This document shows positions 3,410-38,311 of a stretch of DNA of 64,000 nt, piece after piece. The position numbers and the translations under genes are program-made. Positions within the stretch are counted from its first letter, which is position 1, and each line of letters opens with the position of its first letter. Source of the DNA: an uncultured Bacteroidota bacterium (GTDB lineage: Bacteria > Bacteroidota > Bacteroidia > UKL13-3); assembly GCA_903910445.1 (NCBI GenBank), contig CAIVZR010000037.1, positions 1 through 64,000 on the forward strand, written 5' to 3'. The notes under the pieces were generated by a model that made no database searches, had not been told where the DNA came from, and worked only from the letters and a program-made list of their open reading frames with translations.

Positions 3410-4069
3410 TCAGTCTTGATTTTTCCTGCGGTGTTTTTTTAAGATATTGGCTTTACTCTCATTGCCGCCGAAAAGTCTTACAATATTTTTACGGTGCGTT
3501 AATATCACCATCAGAGCAATACAGATGCCAAAAACAATTAACCATTTTTCATGATTGTGAAAAATAAATAAAATAGATATAGGCAACATTACAGCAGCCA
3601 TCATGCTGCTCAAGGATACAAACCGTGTGGTAAATAAAATTAGTAAGAAGAAGATTACACATACCGCTGCTGCAGGAAGATTCACCGCGAGTATCATTCC
3701 AAATAAAGTCGCGACTCCTTTACCTCCCTTGAAGTTTACGTAGATTGGGAATACATGTCCAATAACGGCCAATAAACCAAACAGTAACTGCAAGTTTACA
3801 AAGCGTTCTTCTCCGTAAAAATAATCTCCAATAAAAAAGGCAAAGTTGGCGGCGGTAAAACCTTTGATAATATCGATAATCATCACAATTACTCCGTATT
3901 TCTTACCTAAAACCCGAAAAGTATTGGTTGCTCCAGCATTCCCACTCCCGTGTTCCCGGATATCAATACCGAAAAATCCTTTGCTCACAATAACTGCAGT
4001 AGGTATTGATCCCACCAAATATGCTAATGCTCCAAAAACGATTATTTTAATTAATTCCAATCCTTCCAA
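3410..4069 (-). CDS. plsY: Glycerol-3-phosphate acyltransferase PlsY
   Basis: A 219-residue polytopic inner-membrane enzyme that transfers acyl from acyl-phosphate to glycerol-3-phosphate, the first step of phospholipid synthesis. The three PlsY motifs are visible: GSIPTA at the start, GSGNAGATN (residues about 41-49) and GGKGVATLFG (residues about 114-123). Multiple hydrophobic segments and a basic tail (KKHRRK) are as expected. The start is TTG at 4069, because an in-frame stop lies two codons upstream and no ATG precedes the conserved N-terminal helix. It precedes clpS on the same strand. Confidence 0.95.
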   Translation of the reverse strand: MEGLELIKIIVFGALAYLVGSIPTAVIVSKGFFGIDIREHGSGNAGATNTFRVLGKKYGVIVMIIDIIKGFTAANFAFFIGDYFYGEERFVNLQLLFGLLAVIGHVFPIYVNFKGGKGVATLFGMILAVNLPAAAVCVIFFLLILFTTRFVSLSSMMAAVMLPISILFIFHNHEKWLIVFGICIALMVILTHRKNIVRLFGGNESKANILKKHRRKNQD

Positions 4070-26974: not shown

Positions 26975-29900
26975 TTATTTCATTAGTAAATCTACTACGT
27001 GTTTATTTGAATGTGAATTTCCTTGGCCATCAATAATTGAAATCAGGAATATATAATGTCCTGTATTGGCAAGTTCTCCTTCCATCATTCTACCATCCCA
27101 TCGGTAATAATTCTTCGTTCCTCCAATATCATTTTTCGCCAAAGTATTAACTAATCTTCCCGCTAAATCATAGATACTGATATTGATTGCTTGAGAACCT
27201 GTTGGCAAGGCAATAGTAAAATTTATTTCATCGTCAACGCCATCATTGTCGGGTGTGAAATAGTCCTTATTGAAATGCACCCAGTTATTGGGAGCAATAC
27301 TGCTATTGTATTTTGAATTCACTAAACCCGGCGTTCCATAACCAATATTAGAAGAAGCTGAACTCCAATTTAGTGGCGAAGTTCCAATTCGATCCATGCT
27401 AATTCTCTCTAAGCTGATACCTTCTGTATTATTAATAAATGGATGATGCCATTTTGCTGAATAGATAGCTGAGTCAATAGCAATAGTTGAATTGATAAAT
27501 TGCAAAATCAATATGCCTGAATCATCATCTAGTGATTTCCAATTTGAAGCTTGAATAATGTTCTCATCTTTGCGATGAGAATAATCTTTTTCAAGCGCAC
27601 TTTTATTATTGCAAATCACCAAATATGTTTTTGGAAGAAATTGCCACTCAATATCCGATGCATCTATCGTTGCATGTAATAAACCTTCCTTATCAAAACA
27701 GGTGATTGACAATTCATGTAAGTCAAATATCTTATCAGTATTATTATAAAACTCAATAAACTCACTGCCATTGGAATAAGCATCAAATACAATTTCATTA
27801 ATCGAAATATCATTTTCAATGGGTATACTAGGCAACCCAAAGTAAATTGTAGCAGGTTGAATTAGATGCCCACTGCAGTCGCTTAAGCCACGTATATTCA
27901 TACTGTATATAAATCCATGACCCCATGTAGAGGATTTTACTATTAGGTAAATTTCATTGAGATGCTGTTCATAATAGCCAATTTCGAAGCCACCTACACT
28001 AGCATTTGTAAATTGAAAAATGGCACTATCGAGCGAATTGATATCTATCGATTTATTGAATAGGAAAATAACAGAAGTATCAGCTAGGGTATAAGCCCGA
28101 ATTAGCTTTAAAGGCAACGTATCGATAAGGTTTGCTTGCACCGAATTGATTGCGCTGGGAGTGCCTCCTTTACTATCGATACTGAATTGCCAATTATTTT
28201 GGGTGATGCAAGGCAGTTTTTCGTCAGCCATTTCAAGGCTCCAACCTCCTTTAACTTTTGGATTATTCGGGAATGCTTCCATTTCATAATGTGCCTGATG
28301 AACAATCGCGGAGTTAGAATCAAGTAGCCATAAATTATCTGCTTCTTGATTTAAATAAGGGAAAGAATTAATGCCAATAGCGGGAATTTTTAATGCCATA
28401 AAAATGGGTAATTTTAATGCAGAAACAAGAACGATATGACTATCGTTTTTTAAAATATAATTAGGTAGGACTGCGGTACTATTTCCATCAGTTATTTTCA
28501 TCCCTTTTAAATTTATTGTGTATCCAGAACGATTGCTTAATTCAATATATTGACATCCGGGCCAATAATTATTACCTGTTGCATTGATGAATAATTCAGT
28601 AATGATAACACCATTAAATCGACAGCTAAAAGCCTTGTCATATATGCCTTGAAAACTAACAGGAATCATTTTTTTACCACTGCAATTTTTCGAATCGGAA
28701 AAATTGAAACTATATAATACTTTATTTGTTAATGGCGAAAACTCAAGAAGGATACTATCCGCACTTTTATTCAAAATTGATACTTGTTTAATGAATTGAG
28801 AAGATGCTGTTGCTATAGTGGACACCATTGTACTATCCATAGTACTATTGAAAATCAAAAGTGCGCTTGAATCATTGAATATTTGAAAACTTATTAACCT
28901 TGGAGAGATGGTATCCGCAACAGCATTATAGATAGAATTAGGCATTCCAGGTGTTCCTCCAAGCTTTAAATTTTCGGATGCACTCCAATTGTATTTTCCC
29001 TTGCAACGCAAGCGGGGGTTAATAAGCTCAAGTGCCCATCCACCTTCGCTTTTAAGGGGGTTATTGTACCAGCTTATCTGGTAGTTTACTTCGTCAATTA
29101 CACTGCCATCTATCCTCAATAATTTTAATTGATCGGCGTCATTATTCAAACTTGGGAAATTGCTTACAACAACACTGTTTCCATAGGTAGCATATATATT
29201 AGATGACGATGTAGTACTAACAACTACAAAACTATCAGGTTGTAAAATGTAGTTGGGTAAAATTGCGGTGCTACTTCCATCTGTAATTGAAAAATCTTGT
29301 AAGTTGATTTCATCTGAAGAAGTATTCCATAGTTCAATAAATTCATAATTAGGTAATCCAATCGATGGTGATGGGTCGGCAAAAATTTCATTGATTACAA
29401 GATCTCCATTTTGCACAACACGGAATTTGAAATTGGCGGTATCAAGCCATCTTTGATTGCCAATTAAATCTTTCTGATTTCTTACCTCAAGAAATTGCAA
29501 AGTATTGGGCTCGAAAGGGACGCTAAAAGAGAGTGTGATTTGAGTTCGATTATTAGAATTAAGAGTTGAAATAATGGGGTTAATTTTTTTATTCAACAAA
29601 TAATTAGAACAATTTATAGCCATCATCGAATCAAGAGGCTCATTATATTGTAATCGACAATGAATACTATCTAATACCAAAATACTATCAAGAATAGGTG
29701 AAGTGGTATCAGGTGTAATGGTTTGTATTACAAAATCATCAAAGAAAAATTTCTGTAAGTTGGAACTGGAGTAATGAATTGCCATTCCAAAATATGGCAA
29801 AAAGCTCCAAAATTTGGAAGGATAGTTGTTTTCATGCACCGTACCTTCTAAGACAAAATTATTTCCTGTTCCAGAGGCATCATCATAAAGTTCATACAGG

Positions 29901-30382
29901 TTGTTTAAATCCCGACTAACTCGAATTTTAAAGCTATTAGAGCTCGTGCTGGCCAATCTTCCATCAATTCCATCGATCAGCTTGGTAATAGCCCCTGTAT
30001 CCTTTCTATACAGGCTTATCTCATCATTTGTATTTCCAATTCTTACAAAAATACCTGAATTCAGGCCCATTAAGTTGGCCGAATCACTTATTAAGAAGAT
30101 ATCCGTATAATTTACTGACGATGTGGCAAACTTGAGGTTGACATAAAATTCCCAAACCACATTTTGTGACAGGTTATTGCGGGTGCATAATTGCGCGCTG
30201 CTGCTCGTAGGAGGCGCATTGCTATTGAGTTGTTGCCCAACAATCTTCCAGTAGGAAGTATCGCCAATCCAAGTTGGGTTAGTCGTGAAATTGCCATCGC
30301 TAAACGATTCGTGAAGTTGGGCATTGGACGAAATTCTGACTAATCCGATGAATATCAGAACCAAGATACTGTTTTTAAGCAT
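26975..30382 (-). CDS. Large secreted lamin-tail-domain protein
   Basis: A 1135-residue secreted protein with a signal peptide (ending SSNAQ). Three lamin-tail-like domains are recognisable by INEIFADP-, ITELFINA- and INEIVFDA-type starts and 'FIELWN/YIELSN/FIEFYN' strands (about 330-490, 600-760, 870-1030). They are separated by Big_5-like domains. The end (FTPDNDGVDDEINFTI, then RYDLAGR-like IYDLAGRLV and YYRWDGRM) is a FlgD/CHU_C-type Ig domain typical of surface proteins. It probably acts as an adhesin or surface scaffold. The gene is monocistronic and starts near the sigma-54 region at 30383-30628. Confidence 0.85.
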   Translation of the reverse strand: MLKNSILVLIFIGLVRISSNAQLHESFSDGNFTTNPTWIGDTSYWKIVGQQLNSNAPPTSSSAQLCTRNNLSQNVVWEFYVNLKFATSSVNYTDIFLISDSANLMGLNSGIFVRIGNTNDEISLYRKDTGAITKLIDGIDGRLASTSSNSFKIRVSRDLNNLYELYDDASGTGNNFVLEGTVHENNYPSKFWSFLPYFGMAIHYSSSNLQKFFFDDFVIQTITPDTTSPILDSILVLDSIHCRLQYNEPLDSMMAINCSNYLLNKKINPIISTLNSNNRTQITLSFSVPFEPNTLQFLEVRNQKDLIGNQRWLDTANFKFRVVQNGDLVINEIFADPSPSIGLPNYEFIELWNTSSDEINLQDFSITDGSSTAILPNYILQPDSFVVVSTTSSSNIYATYGNSVVVSNFPSLNNDADQLKLLRIDGSVIDEVNYQISWYNNPLKSEGGWALELINPRLRCKGKYNWSASENLKLGGTPGMPNSIYNAVADTISPRLISFQIFNDSSALLIFNSTMDSTMVSTIATASSQFIKQVSILNKSADSILLEFSPLTNKVLYSFNFSDSKNCSGKKMIPVSFQGIYDKAFSCRFNGVIITELFINATGNNYWPGCQYIELSNRSGYTINLKGMKITDGNSTAVLPNYILKNDSHIVLVSALKLPIFMALKIPAIGINSFPYLNQEADNLWLLDSNSAIVHQAHYEMEAFPNNPKVKGGWSLEMADEKLPCITQNNWQFSIDSKGGTPSAINSVQANLIDTLPLKLIRAYTLADTSVIFLFNKSIDINSLDSAIFQFTNASVGGFEIGYYEQHLNEIYLIVKSSTWGHGFIYSMNIRGLSDCSGHLIQPATIYFGLPSIPIENDISINEIVFDAYSNGSEFIEFYNNTDKIFDLHELSITCFDKEGLLHATIDASDIEWQFLPKTYLVICNNKSALEKDYSHRKDENIIQASNWKSLDDDSGILILQFINSTIAIDSAIYSAKWHHPFINNTEGISLERISMDRIGTSPLNWSSASSNIGYGTPGLVNSKYNSSIAPNNWVHFNKDYFTPDNDGVDDEINFTIALPTGSQAINISIYDLAGRLVNTLAKNDIGGTKNYYRWDGRMMEGELANTGHYIFLISIIDGQGNSHSNKHVVDLLMK

Positions 30383-30495
30383 TTATATTACGAAGATAAA
30401 TAGCGGTAACTAAATCTGAAAACAGAAAATGCAAAAGCTAATTAAATTCAGAAAAAGCTATTGAAAGACAAGGGATAAAAATTTTGTAAATTATT

Positions 30496-30511
30496 TGGCA
30501 CGGAACTTGCA
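30496..30511 (+). promoter_or_regulatory. Sigma-54 (-24/-12) promoter
   Basis: TGGCAC (30496-30501) then TTGC (30507-30510), preceded by T and followed by A, so the whole YTGGCACG-N4-TTGCW consensus is matched. The GG and GC doublets are 12 bases apart, as required. The predicted start is near 30522. It points to the plus strand, where no protein gene begins until 33908. A partial housekeeping-like pair (TTTG at 30494-30497, CGACTTTG) also overlaps, so the sigma-54 assignment needs the presence of rpoN in the genome. Confidence 0.72.
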
Positions 30512-30521
30512 AAATCGACTT

Positions 30522-30626
30522 TGAATGTGAGGTCTCTGTTTGATTTTCATTAATCAAACGTCTCCATTCACTTTTTTTTCATTAGTTTTTGTTTCATTAA
30601 AGGGGAATTGACTTTCCCCTTTTTTG
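30522..30626 (+). ncRNA. Candidate small RNA, about 58 or 105 nt
   Basis: From the predicted sigma-54 start, the RNA opens at once with a long hairpin. GAATG/CATTC (30523-30527 with 30565-30569) extends through GAG/CTC to an inner GTTTGATT/AATCAAAC stem (30538-30545 with 30552-30559) closed by TTCATT. A run of eight T (30572-30579) follows, so this hairpin could itself end the transcript. A T-rich single-stranded stretch then leads to the terminator at 30599-30626. No open reading frame of note exists in it. The RNA would lie between two minus-strand genes. Target and role are unknown. Confidence 0.55.
30599..30626 (+). terminator. Intrinsic terminator, plus-strand
   Basis: AAAGGGGAA-TTGAC-TTCCCCTTT is a perfect 9-bp stem with a 5-base loop. 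On the plus strand it runs into TTTTT. Minus-strand readout is also possible but with a poorer T-run; the gene ending at 30629 may use it. Confidence 0.8.
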
Positions 30627-30628
30627 TT

Positions 30629-31468
30629 TTATAACTTCATCAAAACTAAAGCCTCCTTATTATCTTTCAATAACTCTTTAAGCTCCATCATGGTTTGCTT
30701 GTTATTATTGTTATTCTTTAGTAAACGGTATGCCATGGAATAAAATCTGTTTTCGATGCAGTATTCGATACTTATTGCCAAAATTGATGCTGATAATGGT
30801 TCTTTGGCCTGGCAAATTTTCCTTAGATTCTCTAACGCATCGGTTTTGGTCATTCCTACTAAATACCATTGAAGCACCCGATCAGAACCCACTTTTACTG
30901 TAGTATATTCGTTCAGTATCAAAAGATTAGCTGGCAGAATTAACAGTGTATCTTGGTAAACAATTATTGAGTAGTTGCCAATGCTTATTTTGACTGGATA
31001 TTGGGTTCTTGCCAAGTCGATATTGAACGCAAAGGTATCCTCAGTTATAATAGCACTATCCCAAGGAAAGACAGTACCCTCGCCCCGATAAACGGCCCCC
31101 TTGGCCTTTTGTGTATTTGTATTTGAATTCGCTGAAAATGTTTGTTCTACGAAAAACTTCACGGCCTTTTGCATTTCCTTAGTATTGTTCTGAGTCCCCG
31201 ATTGAATAGAGTTTTTAATTAAAAATTCCCCATTTTGTTTTACTTCAAAAATCTGGTATTTTGAATCAAAAATAATGAGCGCTGAATTACTTACACATTT
31301 GATTTTTGTATTGGAATTGACGGAGTCTTTTGGTCGCAATGTTTCCCACTGCTTTGACTTCGAGGAGAAATACTGAATATTACCTACCGTTTTAAAAACA
31401 GTATAGTTGGCCTGAGTAAATGCATTCAAATACCCTAGAAGCAATAGAATCAATAAATTATTCTTCAT
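30629..31468 (-). CDS. Secreted FecR-like protein paired with CHASE2 gene
   Basis: A 279-residue protein with a signal peptide (ending NAFTQ). The first half (residues about 20-110; KTVGNIQYFSSKSKQWETL and SNSALIIFDSKYQIFEVKQNG) looks like a FecR/SLH-like beta domain that often follows secreted sensors. The C-terminal 70 residues are helical (ALENLRKICQ, then AYRLLKNNNNNK). ATG at 31468 replaces a TTG one codon earlier. The start overlaps the end of the CHASE2 gene by 11 bases, so the two proteins are likely made together and act together. Function unknown. Confidence 0.7.
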   Translation of the reverse strand: MKNNLLILLLLGYLNAFTQANYTVFKTVGNIQYFSSKSKQWETLRPKDSVNSNTKIKCVSNSALIIFDSKYQIFEVKQNGEFLIKNSIQSGTQNNTKEMQKAVKFFVEQTFSANSNTNTQKAKGAVYRGEGTVFPWDSAIITEDTFAFNIDLARTQYPVKISIGNYSIIVYQDTLLILPANLLILNEYTTVKVGSDRVLQWYLVGMTKTDALENLRKICQAKEPLSASILAISIEYCIENRFYSMAYRLLKNNNNNKQTMMELKELLKDNKEALVLMKL

Positions 31469-32690
31469 CAATAAAAATGCTTTTAAAACTATATACTTTA
31501 CTCAAATAATGAATGATGATTCGGTAAAACCCCACCAGTGGTTCGGCCAAGGCAATGGCCGCAATCATTTCACCAATATTCCATTTGATGCCAAATGAAG
31601 AGAAAAAGTAAATAGCCAAGATTAAAATTATTAACCCAAAGAAAAGTTGCAATAAGATTTCTACTACATTTTGCCACACATGTTCCTGGCTTTCCGAGTA
31701 GAGGTACAGGAGGAGAAATAGTGCGATGAATAGTATACAGGCAATAATTTGTAAGATGCGGGAAGGGGCTTGTATTTTGAAATTATTCAGATACCCCGAA
31801 ATAATATTCGCATGTATATAAATCCCATACATATCGGGCAGCGATTTGCCTGCATAATTTTCATTTAATGGTGTGAAATGCTTATCATCAATAACGGTCA
31901 TTCCGTTTTCACTTCCACAAAAGCCAATAAGTACAATTTTTCCTTTTAGTAGATTTAAATCCACACTTGCATTTAATATCTCTTGTGTTGACAGGGTAGT
32001 GTAATGCTCGGAATAAGCCTCGTAGGGTATGATACTTTCAACACTTGTGTTTAATTCCTTGTAAACATTTGATTTTTCTGAATTTTTAAATTTGATAAAA
32101 TTATTAAATGCGAAAGAAGAAATTTTTCTTTCTCTGAAATTTTGAATCTTATAATAGCTTCGAATGGTTTGATTTTCATCACCAATAAAATTTACATAAC
32201 CGAGGTTATCATCATCACCAAGTTTAGGGATGGCATGAGGTTGAATACTATAAATATTGTTTCCAAGTGTGGAATCGGCATAGCAGGCAACCACAATTTG
32301 CTTCCCAAAACATTGAATTGCACTATCGAGAAGTTTATCGGTGGCACTGTCCTTATCAGTATTGAAAATAATATCCAAGCCGAGTACTGCAGGGGCATAT
32401 TCCTTAATTTTCAGAAGGGTATTCGCGATGGTTTCTCGGTCGGCATCCCCGATATTTACAACAACTATTTGCTGGTCTTGTATATTTTCACCTGCAACAT
32501 TTTTAATTTGGGAATAATAAATATCACTCCAGTCAAAGTCTTTAAAAGCATTGCTGGCTGGCTGAAACCAATTGGAATTGAATGGCAGTAACTGAATACC
32601 TAATAGTACAAAGTATATGAATGAAGCACAGAGTAGGGCGTCTCTTAGCAGCACTTTTACGAAACTCCAATTTTTTTTCTTCACATCCAT
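31458..32690 (-). CDS. CHASE2-domain membrane protein without output domain
   Basis: A 410-residue protein. One transmembrane helix (about 15-35) is followed by a periplasmic CHASE2 sensor (about 50-295; QQIVVVNIGDADRETI, APAVLGLDIIFN and GKIVLIGFCGSENG are family landmarks) and then three hydrophobic segments (about 305-395). The chain stops about 20 residues after the last helix, so there is no kinase, cyclase or phosphatase domain. It is translationally overlapped with the secreted FecR-like gene. It may pass a signal through a partner; the partner is unknown. Confidence 0.82.
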   Translation of the reverse strand: MDVKKKNWSFVKVLLRDALLCASFIYFVLLGIQLLPFNSNWFQPASNAFKDFDWSDIYYSQIKNVAGENIQDQQIVVVNIGDADRETIANTLLKIKEYAPAVLGLDIIFNTDKDSATDKLLDSAIQCFGKQIVVACYADSTLGNNIYSIQPHAIPKLGDDDNLGYVNFIGDENQTIRSYYKIQNFRERKISSFAFNNFIKFKNSEKSNVYKELNTSVESIIPYEAYSEHYTTLSTQEILNASVDLNLLKGKIVLIGFCGSENGMTVIDDKHFTPLNENYAGKSLPDMYGIYIHANIISGYLNNFKIQAPSRILQIIACILFIALFLLLYLYSESQEHVWQNVVEILLQLFFGLIILILAIYFFSSFGIKWNIGEMIAAIALAEPLVGFYRIIIHYLSKVYSFKSIFIDEE

Positions 32691-32751
32691 TACGAATAAT
32701 AAAAGTATTCTATAAATTTATGTTTTGTTTTCAGAGTAAGTAAAGATAGTA

Positions 32752-33789
32752 TTATTTGATATTATGATCTTCTAAATAATGCTGATACTTTTTAGCATTT
32801 ACCCGATGATCATTATAATTTTCTGCGAAGTCGCTGTAACCACTTCCATCATTGCGCGCGCAGAAATATATGAAATGATGCTGCTGGTAATTTAATACCG
32901 CATCAATCGATTGTATTGCCGGAATACAAATAGGTCCGGGTGGCAATCCTTTATACATATAAGTATTATATGGCGAATCATAATCAAGCATCTTACTATA
33001 TACCCGTTTGGAGGTATTATCATGCATGGCAAAAAGAACAGTAGGGTCGGCTTGGAGTTTCATCCCTTTGGCCAATCTATTAATATATACACCAGCAATG
33101 ATGGGCATATCCGAATCCTTATCAGTTTCCTTCTCAATTATACTCGATAATGTTATCACTTCTGTGCGAGTTAATCCTGCATCTTTACATTGTTGAACCC
33201 TTTTTTCGGTCCAAAACTTATCGTATGCATCGTGCATCTTTAGCATGAAATTTTCCAATGAGATATTCCAATACAATTCATATGTATTAGGGATGATTAA
33301 GCAAGTAGCCGTTTCTGGTGTCAGGTTGTATTGCTTTAAATACTCGGCATCATTGAGTTTAGAGTTTAAAGCATCAAGAGTAATTTCCAAATTATCGGCT
33401 ACATATTCTAAGAAGTTCTGCATGCTCTGTGAGCCTTTAATAATGAGCTTCACGGGTTCTTGCTTGCCAGATCTCAACAATCGAACGAGCTCAAAATTGT
33501 TCATATTGTTTTTTAAACGATAACGACCAGGAAGCACCGCATTATTGTATCCAACACTCTTTGACAATAATGTAAAGGCGGTGATGTCTTTGATTATTTT
33601 TTTATTCTCTAGAATAGCGATAACATCTTCAAACTTTGCTCCTGTAGGAATGTATAAATATTCTTTCTCTTTGTTTTTTGGAAATACGATATTTTTTTTC
33701 AAGAAAAGATAATAGGCTACACCAAAAATCGCAAAGAATATTATTCCAACGATGATAAGAATTCGTTTCGACTTCTTTTTCAATTTCAT
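32752..33789 (-). CDS. mltG: Endolytic murein transglycosylase MltG
   Basis: A 345-residue YceG-like protein with an N-terminal membrane anchor (IIVGIIFFAIFGVAYYLF) and a periplasmic catalytic domain. The family signatures ITLSSIIEKET and DSPYNTYMYKGLPPGPI are visible, with the catalytic Glu in SSIIEKE. It cleaves nascent peptidoglycan glycan strands. The ATG at 33789 (MKLKKKSKR) is chosen over a GTG six codons upstream. It is followed on the same strand by the CHASE2 gene, 61 bases downstream. Confidence 0.94.
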   Translation of the reverse strand: MKLKKKSKRILIIVGIIFFAIFGVAYYLFLKKNIVFPKNKEKEYLYIPTGAKFEDVIAILENKKIIKDITAFTLLSKSVGYNNAVLPGRYRLKNNMNNFELVRLLRSGKQEPVKLIIKGSQSMQNFLEYVADNLEITLDALNSKLNDAEYLKQYNLTPETATCLIIPNTYELYWNISLENFMLKMHDAYDKFWTEKRVQQCKDAGLTRTEVITLSSIIEKETDKDSDMPIIAGVYINRLAKGMKLQADPTVLFAMHDNTSKRVYSKMLDYDSPYNTYMYKGLPPGPICIPAIQSIDAVLNYQQHHFIYFCARNDGSGYSDFAENYNDHRVNAKKYQHYLEDHNIK

Positions 33790-37300: not shown

Positions 37301-38164
37301 TTACTGAGCTAGTTTGTATGAGAAGAAAGTGTAGTCTTCGTTAGAAGCAGCACCGTCATCAACTAATGATTTAATTTTAACTACTGCGTAAGTGTTAGAA
37401 TTTTTGATATTAACAATGATGAAATCACCAGCAACAAAAGTAATCAAGTCGCTAGCAGTTCCAGCTTTGTATGCATCAAGAATCAACTTCGGAGAAGCAT
37501 TGGCAAAATCAAAGGTAGAAGGTGCCTTTACAAATTTACAACCATCACGTGATCCCCAACGACCTGCAAAAGGATTTGCAGCTGAAGCGGAGTCACGAAT
37601 GTCTTTTGTAGTGTTTGCATCAGCAGCCAATTTAGGTTGTCTGTTTTGTAAATCCCATGCTGAATTATTAGTAGCCCCAGATGAATAACGGCTATATACT
37701 CTAGGTGCTACTGCGTTTTCAACCAAGTATAATAAATCATCAAGCTTAATAGTAGAAGCTCCAACAGTTAATGTTAAAGTTTTAGTTTCAGAAGCTGCAT
37801 CTTTACAATCGCTAGTTGCTGTTACCGTGTAAGTAATCACTGAACCAATGGCAGTATTTGCAGGAACTGAATCAGTTAATACAACTGTTTTTCCTTTTTC
37901 GCCAACGCTGGTCAATGAAAGGAACGCAGGATCAGTAACACCGTTAGATGATTTTGAAACAACGATTGATTTAATGTTGTCTGCATCACCAGTTACTACA
38001 ACATTCATTGTGAATTTCTCACCAGGAGCTTTTGATAATGTGCCACCTGATGGATCAAAAGTGATTGTTGGAGCAGTACATGTGCTACCACAGCTAGAAG
38101 AGGTTAATACAAAAGCTCCAATGATAAAGAGAGCAAGAATGGAAAGTGATTTTAAAGATCTCAT
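37301..38164 (-). CDS. Secreted lipoprotein with an Ig-like domain
   Basis: A 287-residue protein with a lipoprotein signal (LTSSSCGSTC; Cys at about residue 25). Residues about 30-135 look like an immunoglobulin-type beta domain (TITFDPSGGTLSKAPG and ITYTVTATSDC). The C-terminal half (RVYSRYSSGATNNSAWDL, then RWGSRDGCKF) is unfamiliar. It has an exact promoter, a short leader and a strong terminator, so it is a monocistronic and probably well-expressed surface lipoprotein. Function is unknown. Confidence 0.78.
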   Translation of the reverse strand: MRSLKSLSILALFIIGAFVLTSSSCGSTCTAPTITFDPSGGTLSKAPGEKFTMNVVVTGDADNIKSIVVSKSSNGVTDPAFLSLTSVGEKGKTVVLTDSVPANTAIGSVITYTVTATSDCKDAASETKTLTLTVGASTIKLDDLLYLVENAVAPRVYSRYSSGATNNSAWDLQNRQPKLAADANTTKDIRDSASAANPFAGRWGSRDGCKFVKAPSTFDFANASPKLILDAYKAGTASDLITFVAGDFIIVNIKNSNTYAVVKIKSLVDDGAASNEDYTFFSYKLAQ

Positions 38165-38226: not shown

Positions 38227-38311
38227 AAACAATTATCGTGCCAAAGGAAAGTGATAAATTTTTTATTCTTGAATCGTTTTTTCAAGTTGTTTTGAAACTC
38301 TAACCGAATTT

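Follow-up and report, generated by a model that had tools for sequence, protein, structure and literature searches.

A predicted sigma-54-driven small RNA gene and its paralogues in one genus of Bacteroidota

A gap between two minus-strand genes of an uncultured Bacteroidota bacterium carries a complete sigma-54 promoter on the plus strand, which raises the question of what this promoter transcribes. The window, that is, the whole 64,000-nucleotide stretch of DNA under analysis, contains TTGGCACGGAACTTGCA as its sole full match to YTGGCACG-N4-TTGCW, exactly where a preliminary description had placed it, and no full match arose in 100 dinucleotide-preserving shuffles of the window, in agreement with the rarity which that description had estimated. 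Every gene in 26975-33789 is encoded on the minus strand, as also described, so that the nearest plausible plus-strand gene downstream starts only at about 33902. The gap very probably holds instead a gene for a regulatory RNA of about 105 bases, switched on by RpoN (sigma-54). Its predicted features are as follows.

30495-30511, plus strand: sigma-54 promoter TTGGCACGGAACTTGCA, full consensus match with no mismatch
30495-30500, plus strand: -24 element TTGGCA, part of the sigma-54 promoter
30507-30510, plus strand: -12 element TTGC, part of the sigma-54 promoter
30522-30629, plus strand: small RNA gene, predicted start at 30522/30523, end within the terminator T-run
30522-30570, plus strand: 5' hairpin of two stacked stems with 19 pairs, minimum free energy -16.9 kcal/mol, z -4.6
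30571-30598, plus strand: single-stranded U-rich linker CUUUUUUUUCAUUAGUUUUUGUUUCAUU, the core common to all subfamilies
30599-30629, plus strand: intrinsic terminator from a terminator scan, a 9-bp stem (30599-30622) followed by a T-run, -14.9 kcal/mol, z -3.2

Anatomy and conservation of the locus

The -24/-12 promoter (TGGCAC-N5-TTGC) at 30495-30511 is correctly spaced, and the hairpin said to open at about 30522 does fold there, with the energy listed above also for 30522-30571. The eight T reported behind it occupy 30572-30579, and the linker in which they lie presents two tandem CAU motifs resembling anti-start sequences. The terminator was recovered as a 9-bp stem with a T-run, with two overlapping matches in the scan of the region against 0.3 per region in shuffles; its originally proposed end needs a small correction, the stem occupying 30599-30622 and the element running to about 30629. 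The whole RNA (30522-30630) folds at -31.8 kcal/mol with a z of -5.8, lacks a usable ATG reading frame (ATG TGA), and reaches with its T-run the stop codon of orf280 (30629-31468), which runs convergently. RNA polymerase with sigma-54, under one of three activators, would begin transcription at about 30522, and the intrinsic terminator would stop it at about 30629, yielding a free-standing non-coding gene of about 105 nt. Comparative evidence gives good support to a sigma-54-driven small RNA gene at 30495-30629.

All five genomes of the genus carry promoter and RNA at the equivalent position, between the gene for an LTD/CHU_C exported protein and the mltG side, and the anticipated conservation of promoter plus hairpin in relatives is thereby confirmed. 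Expressed as mean pairwise DNA identity among the four diverged genomes, with the close relative G003 left out, the promoter boxes are 100% (TTGGCA) and 88% (TTGC) identical, the N6 spacer between them 36%, the 13 columns after the -12 element 42%, the flank 46%, and the RNA itself 83%. The neighbouring proteins in the diverged genomes are 43–49% (orf280 and LTD) and 68–70% (mltG) identical. A conserved block beginning GAATG starts 12 nt after the GC of the -12 element in four of the five genomes and 13 nt after it in the fifth, and sigma-54 begins transcription 12-13 nt past this GC. A conserved non-coding RNA with its terminator is hence laid out from about +1 behind the promoter.

The predicted helices are maintained across the five genomes, with 90-91% of cells paired in the 5' hairpin, partly through one-sided G-U changes, 96% in the terminator, and 92% overall. 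The covariation analysis proposed for the hairpin found no compensatory double changes across the five genomes, whose close similarity leaves room for few of them, so that conservation of the structure rests on conservation of the sequence. The linker is identical in four of the five genomes, and the fifth, G004, is without one of its two repeats. This window-type copy in G004 (L034 / L182:7478-7632) combines the shortened linker with a weaker terminator, the subfamily 3 copy described below was not detected in the same genome, and the window-type RNA of G004 is perhaps a decaying copy.

A transcript acting in cis, as an antisense or 3'-UTR transcript on orf280, CHASE2, mltG or the divergent LTD-domain gene, would fit the terminator tail touching the end of orf280 and the opposite orientation of all neighbours. 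We regard it as very improbable, since the overlap with neighbours amounts to a few nucleotides at most, the same core occurs at unrelated loci, and promoter and RNA are kept in G002 and G004, whose locus showed neither orf280 nor CHASE2. The window RNA is accordingly independent of these two genes.

A paralogous family confined to one genus

A DNA search and two covariance models (R1 and R2) reveal three to six related copies per genome, which fall into three subfamilies sharing the linker, with small changes among paralogues, and the terminator. Subfamily 2, with at least two copies per genome and located in the source genome (G000) at C65, C73 and C60, carries its own 5' hairpin, usually GTTAAGCGCAAGCTTAAC, followed by a closely similar linker and a terminator. 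Directly before this hairpin lies a TAnnTTTG element, the -7 box recognised by the housekeeping sigma factor of Bacteroidota. A diverged member of this subfamily on C34 (L057:410-483) shows the hairpin GTTAGGCAGAAGTTTAAC and continues as TTTTTTTTCCTAAGGTTTTATTCATATGAGGGGC.

Subfamily 3 occurs at C46:113.5 kb in the source genome and in three further genomes, with conserved synteny near guaA. A sigma-54 promoter of its own, for example TTGGCACAATGTTTGTA or TTGGCATAATGTTTGCA, precedes an RNA of only about 57 nt that consists of the repeated linker motif and then the terminator. Among its three diverged genomes, TTGGCA is 100% and TTGY 83% identical, the following 11 nt 45%, and the RNA 99%, which makes this an independent second locus with a layout like that of the window RNA. 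Since the subfamily 3 RNA is composed almost entirely of the shared core, this core, and within it most likely the linker, is probably the working part of the RNAs.

Further upstream of the subfamily 3 promoter, a block around TATCTGTAG..TATTCTG.GCATT, about 20-45 nt before the -24 element, is conserved in four genomes (L127, L185, L184 and L183), with 75% identity over alignment columns 158-182. Subfamily 3 is alone in having such a block, which is possibly a site for an activator or an architectural protein. A search for upstream activator sites found no 9-mer or inverted repeat common to unrelated sigma-54 promoters.

The distribution of promoters is best explained if the window RNA and its paralogue at C46:113.5 kb answer to sigma-54 and the other copies to the housekeeping sigma factor. 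That one core stands behind both housekeeping and sigma-54 promoters is the most distinctive feature of the family. The preliminary description had considered the window RNA by itself; it is one of several family members, of which a second likewise stands behind a conserved sigma-54 promoter and the others behind TAnnTTTG promoters.

The recurrence of the family bears on two further explanations. The hairpins might be nothing but the terminator region of the minus-strand operon, with the sigma-54 motif present by chance; the region does lie directly behind orf280, and its stem is partly symmetric (AAAAAAGGGG...CCCCTTT). This is highly improbable, however, given that the scan detected a terminator and its T-run on the plus side only, that the -24/-12 boxes are selectively conserved at fixed spacing in five genomes, and that further family members stand at other loci, again behind recognisable promoters. 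Three to six related copies per genome could also suggest a small mobile or REP-like repeat in place of RNA genes, but the orthologues keep their loci (the window RNA is syntenic in five genomes, subfamily 3 in four), each subfamily is bounded by a promoter in front and a terminator behind, outside which the flanks are unrelated, and viral contigs gave no match, all of which makes a repeat element scarcely credible. Small RNA genes are thus the reading retained.

A search pattern written to include the cores of the three subfamilies gave 16 matches among 84,980 species, represented by one genome each, and every match lies in four metagenome-assembled genomes, which correspond to the four other genomes of the genus and whose sample names suggest a lake origin. 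The same search returned no match in other genera, and the pattern was also without a match in viral contigs. The R1 and R2 models gave no convincing relatives outside the genus in 64 genomes of the family, which are also all the genomes that a search at the level of the order yielded. Rfam 15, searched with the window at the gathering threshold and with the loci at permissive E-values, returned spurious eukaryotic matches only. Judged by these sequence searches, this is a previously undescribed RNA sequence family, found in one genus of Bacteroidota only.

RpoN, its activators and the wider regulon

The source genome (3.43 Mb in 107 contigs) encodes one RpoN, in which the activator-interacting, core-binding and DNA-binding domains are all present. 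Strong sigma-54 activation domains occur in three of its proteins, encoded at C76, C56 and C93. The rpoN gene that the preliminary description had called for is therefore present, and its reading of the locus as a sigma-54 small RNA gains support from rpoN, the activators, and the conserved promoter and hairpin. The pattern YTGGCAYN5TTGCW has only three perfect sites in the 3.43-Mb genome, at the window RNA, at window position 3515 (minus strand) and at C60:4959. The relaxed regulon pattern TTGGCAYN5TTGYW, run on 1.26 Mb (37% of the genome), gave six matches, four of which are intergenic, where intergenic DNA makes up 14% of bases. Two of the four intergenic matches belong to small RNAs of the family (the window RNA and the subfamily 3 RNA); the other two precede the exported-protein gene 37301-38164 and a histidine-kinase/response-regulator pair on C60. 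The former is the following feature.

38228-38244, minus strand: candidate sigma-54 promoter TTGGCACGATAATTGTT, intergenic, relaxed consensus, 63 nt upstream of gene 37301-38164

This candidate is also present in G003 and is possibly a fellow member of the regulon, separate from the small RNA. The interval up to the gene contains a TAnnTTTG-like element.

The full site on C60 (G000:C60:4959-4975, minus strand, L133) lies 230 nt upstream of the histidine kinase/response regulator pair, and its intergenic region together with a similar site was found in G003, G002 and G001; owing to this recurrence in three relatives, the long 5' leader may have a function. Beyond the C60 promoter in the opposite direction, 173 nt (L082:1583-1755) are closed by a long stem (AACATCCG...CGGATGTT), with a fold z of -4.3 and no Rfam match, upstream of a 1266-aa exported protein; this segment is possibly a structured RNA or leader.

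One-mismatch sigma-54 sites occur 38 nt before dnaK (L160:8474-8490, G000:C4) and 31 nt before an exported-protein gene, and the sigma-54 regulon here probably includes dnaK. Mapped sigma-54 promoters of Flavobacterium psychrophilum precede dnaK, other chaperone genes, exported-protein and gliding genes, and the putative regulatory RNA Rfp36 (PMC9723704). The sites found here and this parallel place the window RNA probably within a protein-quality and envelope regulon.

Mode of action and comparison with known systems

We put the probability that the locus is a sigma-54 small RNA gene with trans action of some kind at about 0.78. The linker reads UUUUUUUUCAUUAG-UUUUUGUUUCAUUAAAG, and its complement, CTTTAATGAAACAAAAACTAATGAAAAAAAA, corresponds to two A-rich start-codon contexts in tandem; Bacteroidota starts generally have no Shine-Dalgarno lead. 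The RNA would act in trans by pairing with mRNAs close to start codons in an A-rich context (AUGAAA(C)AAAA...), and such pairing would lower the translation of proteins that are exported or belong to the envelope when stress activates sigma-54. By analogy with FopS/GibS of Bacteroides, the members of the family are most likely trans-acting small RNAs; start-codon pairing as their mode of action is put forward tentatively, at a little short of even odds.

The target tests covered about 1.2 Mb of stretches, with gene starts from a simple longest-ORF caller, which makes the tests weaker. Duplex energies of the linker against 970 start regions showed no excess over shuffled linkers. Uninterrupted pairing of the window RNA exceeded expectation at one threshold only (20 versus 7.2 +/- 3.8), with p of 0.07-0.17 at the other thresholds, and the paralogues showed no excess in this test. 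The core word AACAAAAACTAT was no commoner than a control in the five genomes. Start-codon targeting is therefore kept as an inference. One long match to the core word (L140) was rejected as a target, as it lies within a local inverted repeat.

The RNA may instead act by binding a protein, for example as a decoy for an RRM protein, without pairing to mRNA; this is a serious rival to pairing, judged unlikely on balance. As would be expected of a protein-binding site, the conserved core is single-stranded, rich in U, repeated and of low complexity, the target tests gave no robust excess of pairing, one RRM_1 protein is encoded in the genome at C2:11523 and Hfq was not detected in it, and RbpB binds FopS small RNAs in Bacteroides (PMC11697453). 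Against it, the FopS RNA itself still works through base-pairing, and CAU triplets in a start-codon-complementary context stand in the shared core of all three subfamilies.

Rather doubtful is the fuller proposal that sigma-54 stress adds extra doses of a constitutive anti-start-codon RNA, giving a graded, Hfq-free shutdown of exported proteins. If true, one core would have been duplicated to housekeeping and sigma-54 promoters, down to a minimal form of 57 nt, and its role would be comparable to that of the E. coli sigma-E small RNAs RybB and MicA. With a shortest member that is little more than the core, the seed lends itself readily to testing.

Sigma-54-dependent small RNAs of Proteobacteria, such as GlmY and CrcZ, are likewise short and intergenic, with a -24/-12 promoter under an activator. 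They act with Hfq, RapZ or Crc; in the present genome Hfq was not found. A similar likeness in description holds for the quorum regulatory RNA of Vibrio fischeri, which is short and intergenic and has an activator-dependent -24/-12 promoter (PMC10162802).

The paralogous FopS/GibS small RNAs of B. thetaiotaomicron prevent translation of their targets through pairing next to the start codon (PMC11697453). They resemble the present family as multi-copy paralogues sharing one stretch in a genome that encodes an RRM-domain protein, and most stand behind a sigma-ABfr promoter and GibS behind another type, just as two promoter types occur here (PMC11697453). Several paralogues per genome are found here as well, but the alternative promoter, that of the window RNA and subfamily 3, can be recognised as a sigma-54 site, and the shared core adjoins the terminator, whereas theirs lies at the 5' end. 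As to sequence, the comparison was made with the core pattern of the present family, which had no match in Bacteroides among the 84,980 species.

Also close by description is Rfp36 of F. psychrophilum, which is tabulated as a putative regulatory RNA with a sigma-54 (SM4) promoter and no stated function, in a host that likewise has three PF00158 activators (PMC9723704, Table 2A). The core pattern has no Flavobacterium match among the 84,980 species. The earlier statement that no such RNA had been described in Bacteroidota was accordingly too strong, and a sigma-54 small RNA in this phylum is not wholly without precedent (PMC9723704). Beside Rfp36, the only other entry found in the literature searched, the two independent loci described here provide comparative-genomic evidence for direct sigma-54 control of small RNAs in Bacteroidota.
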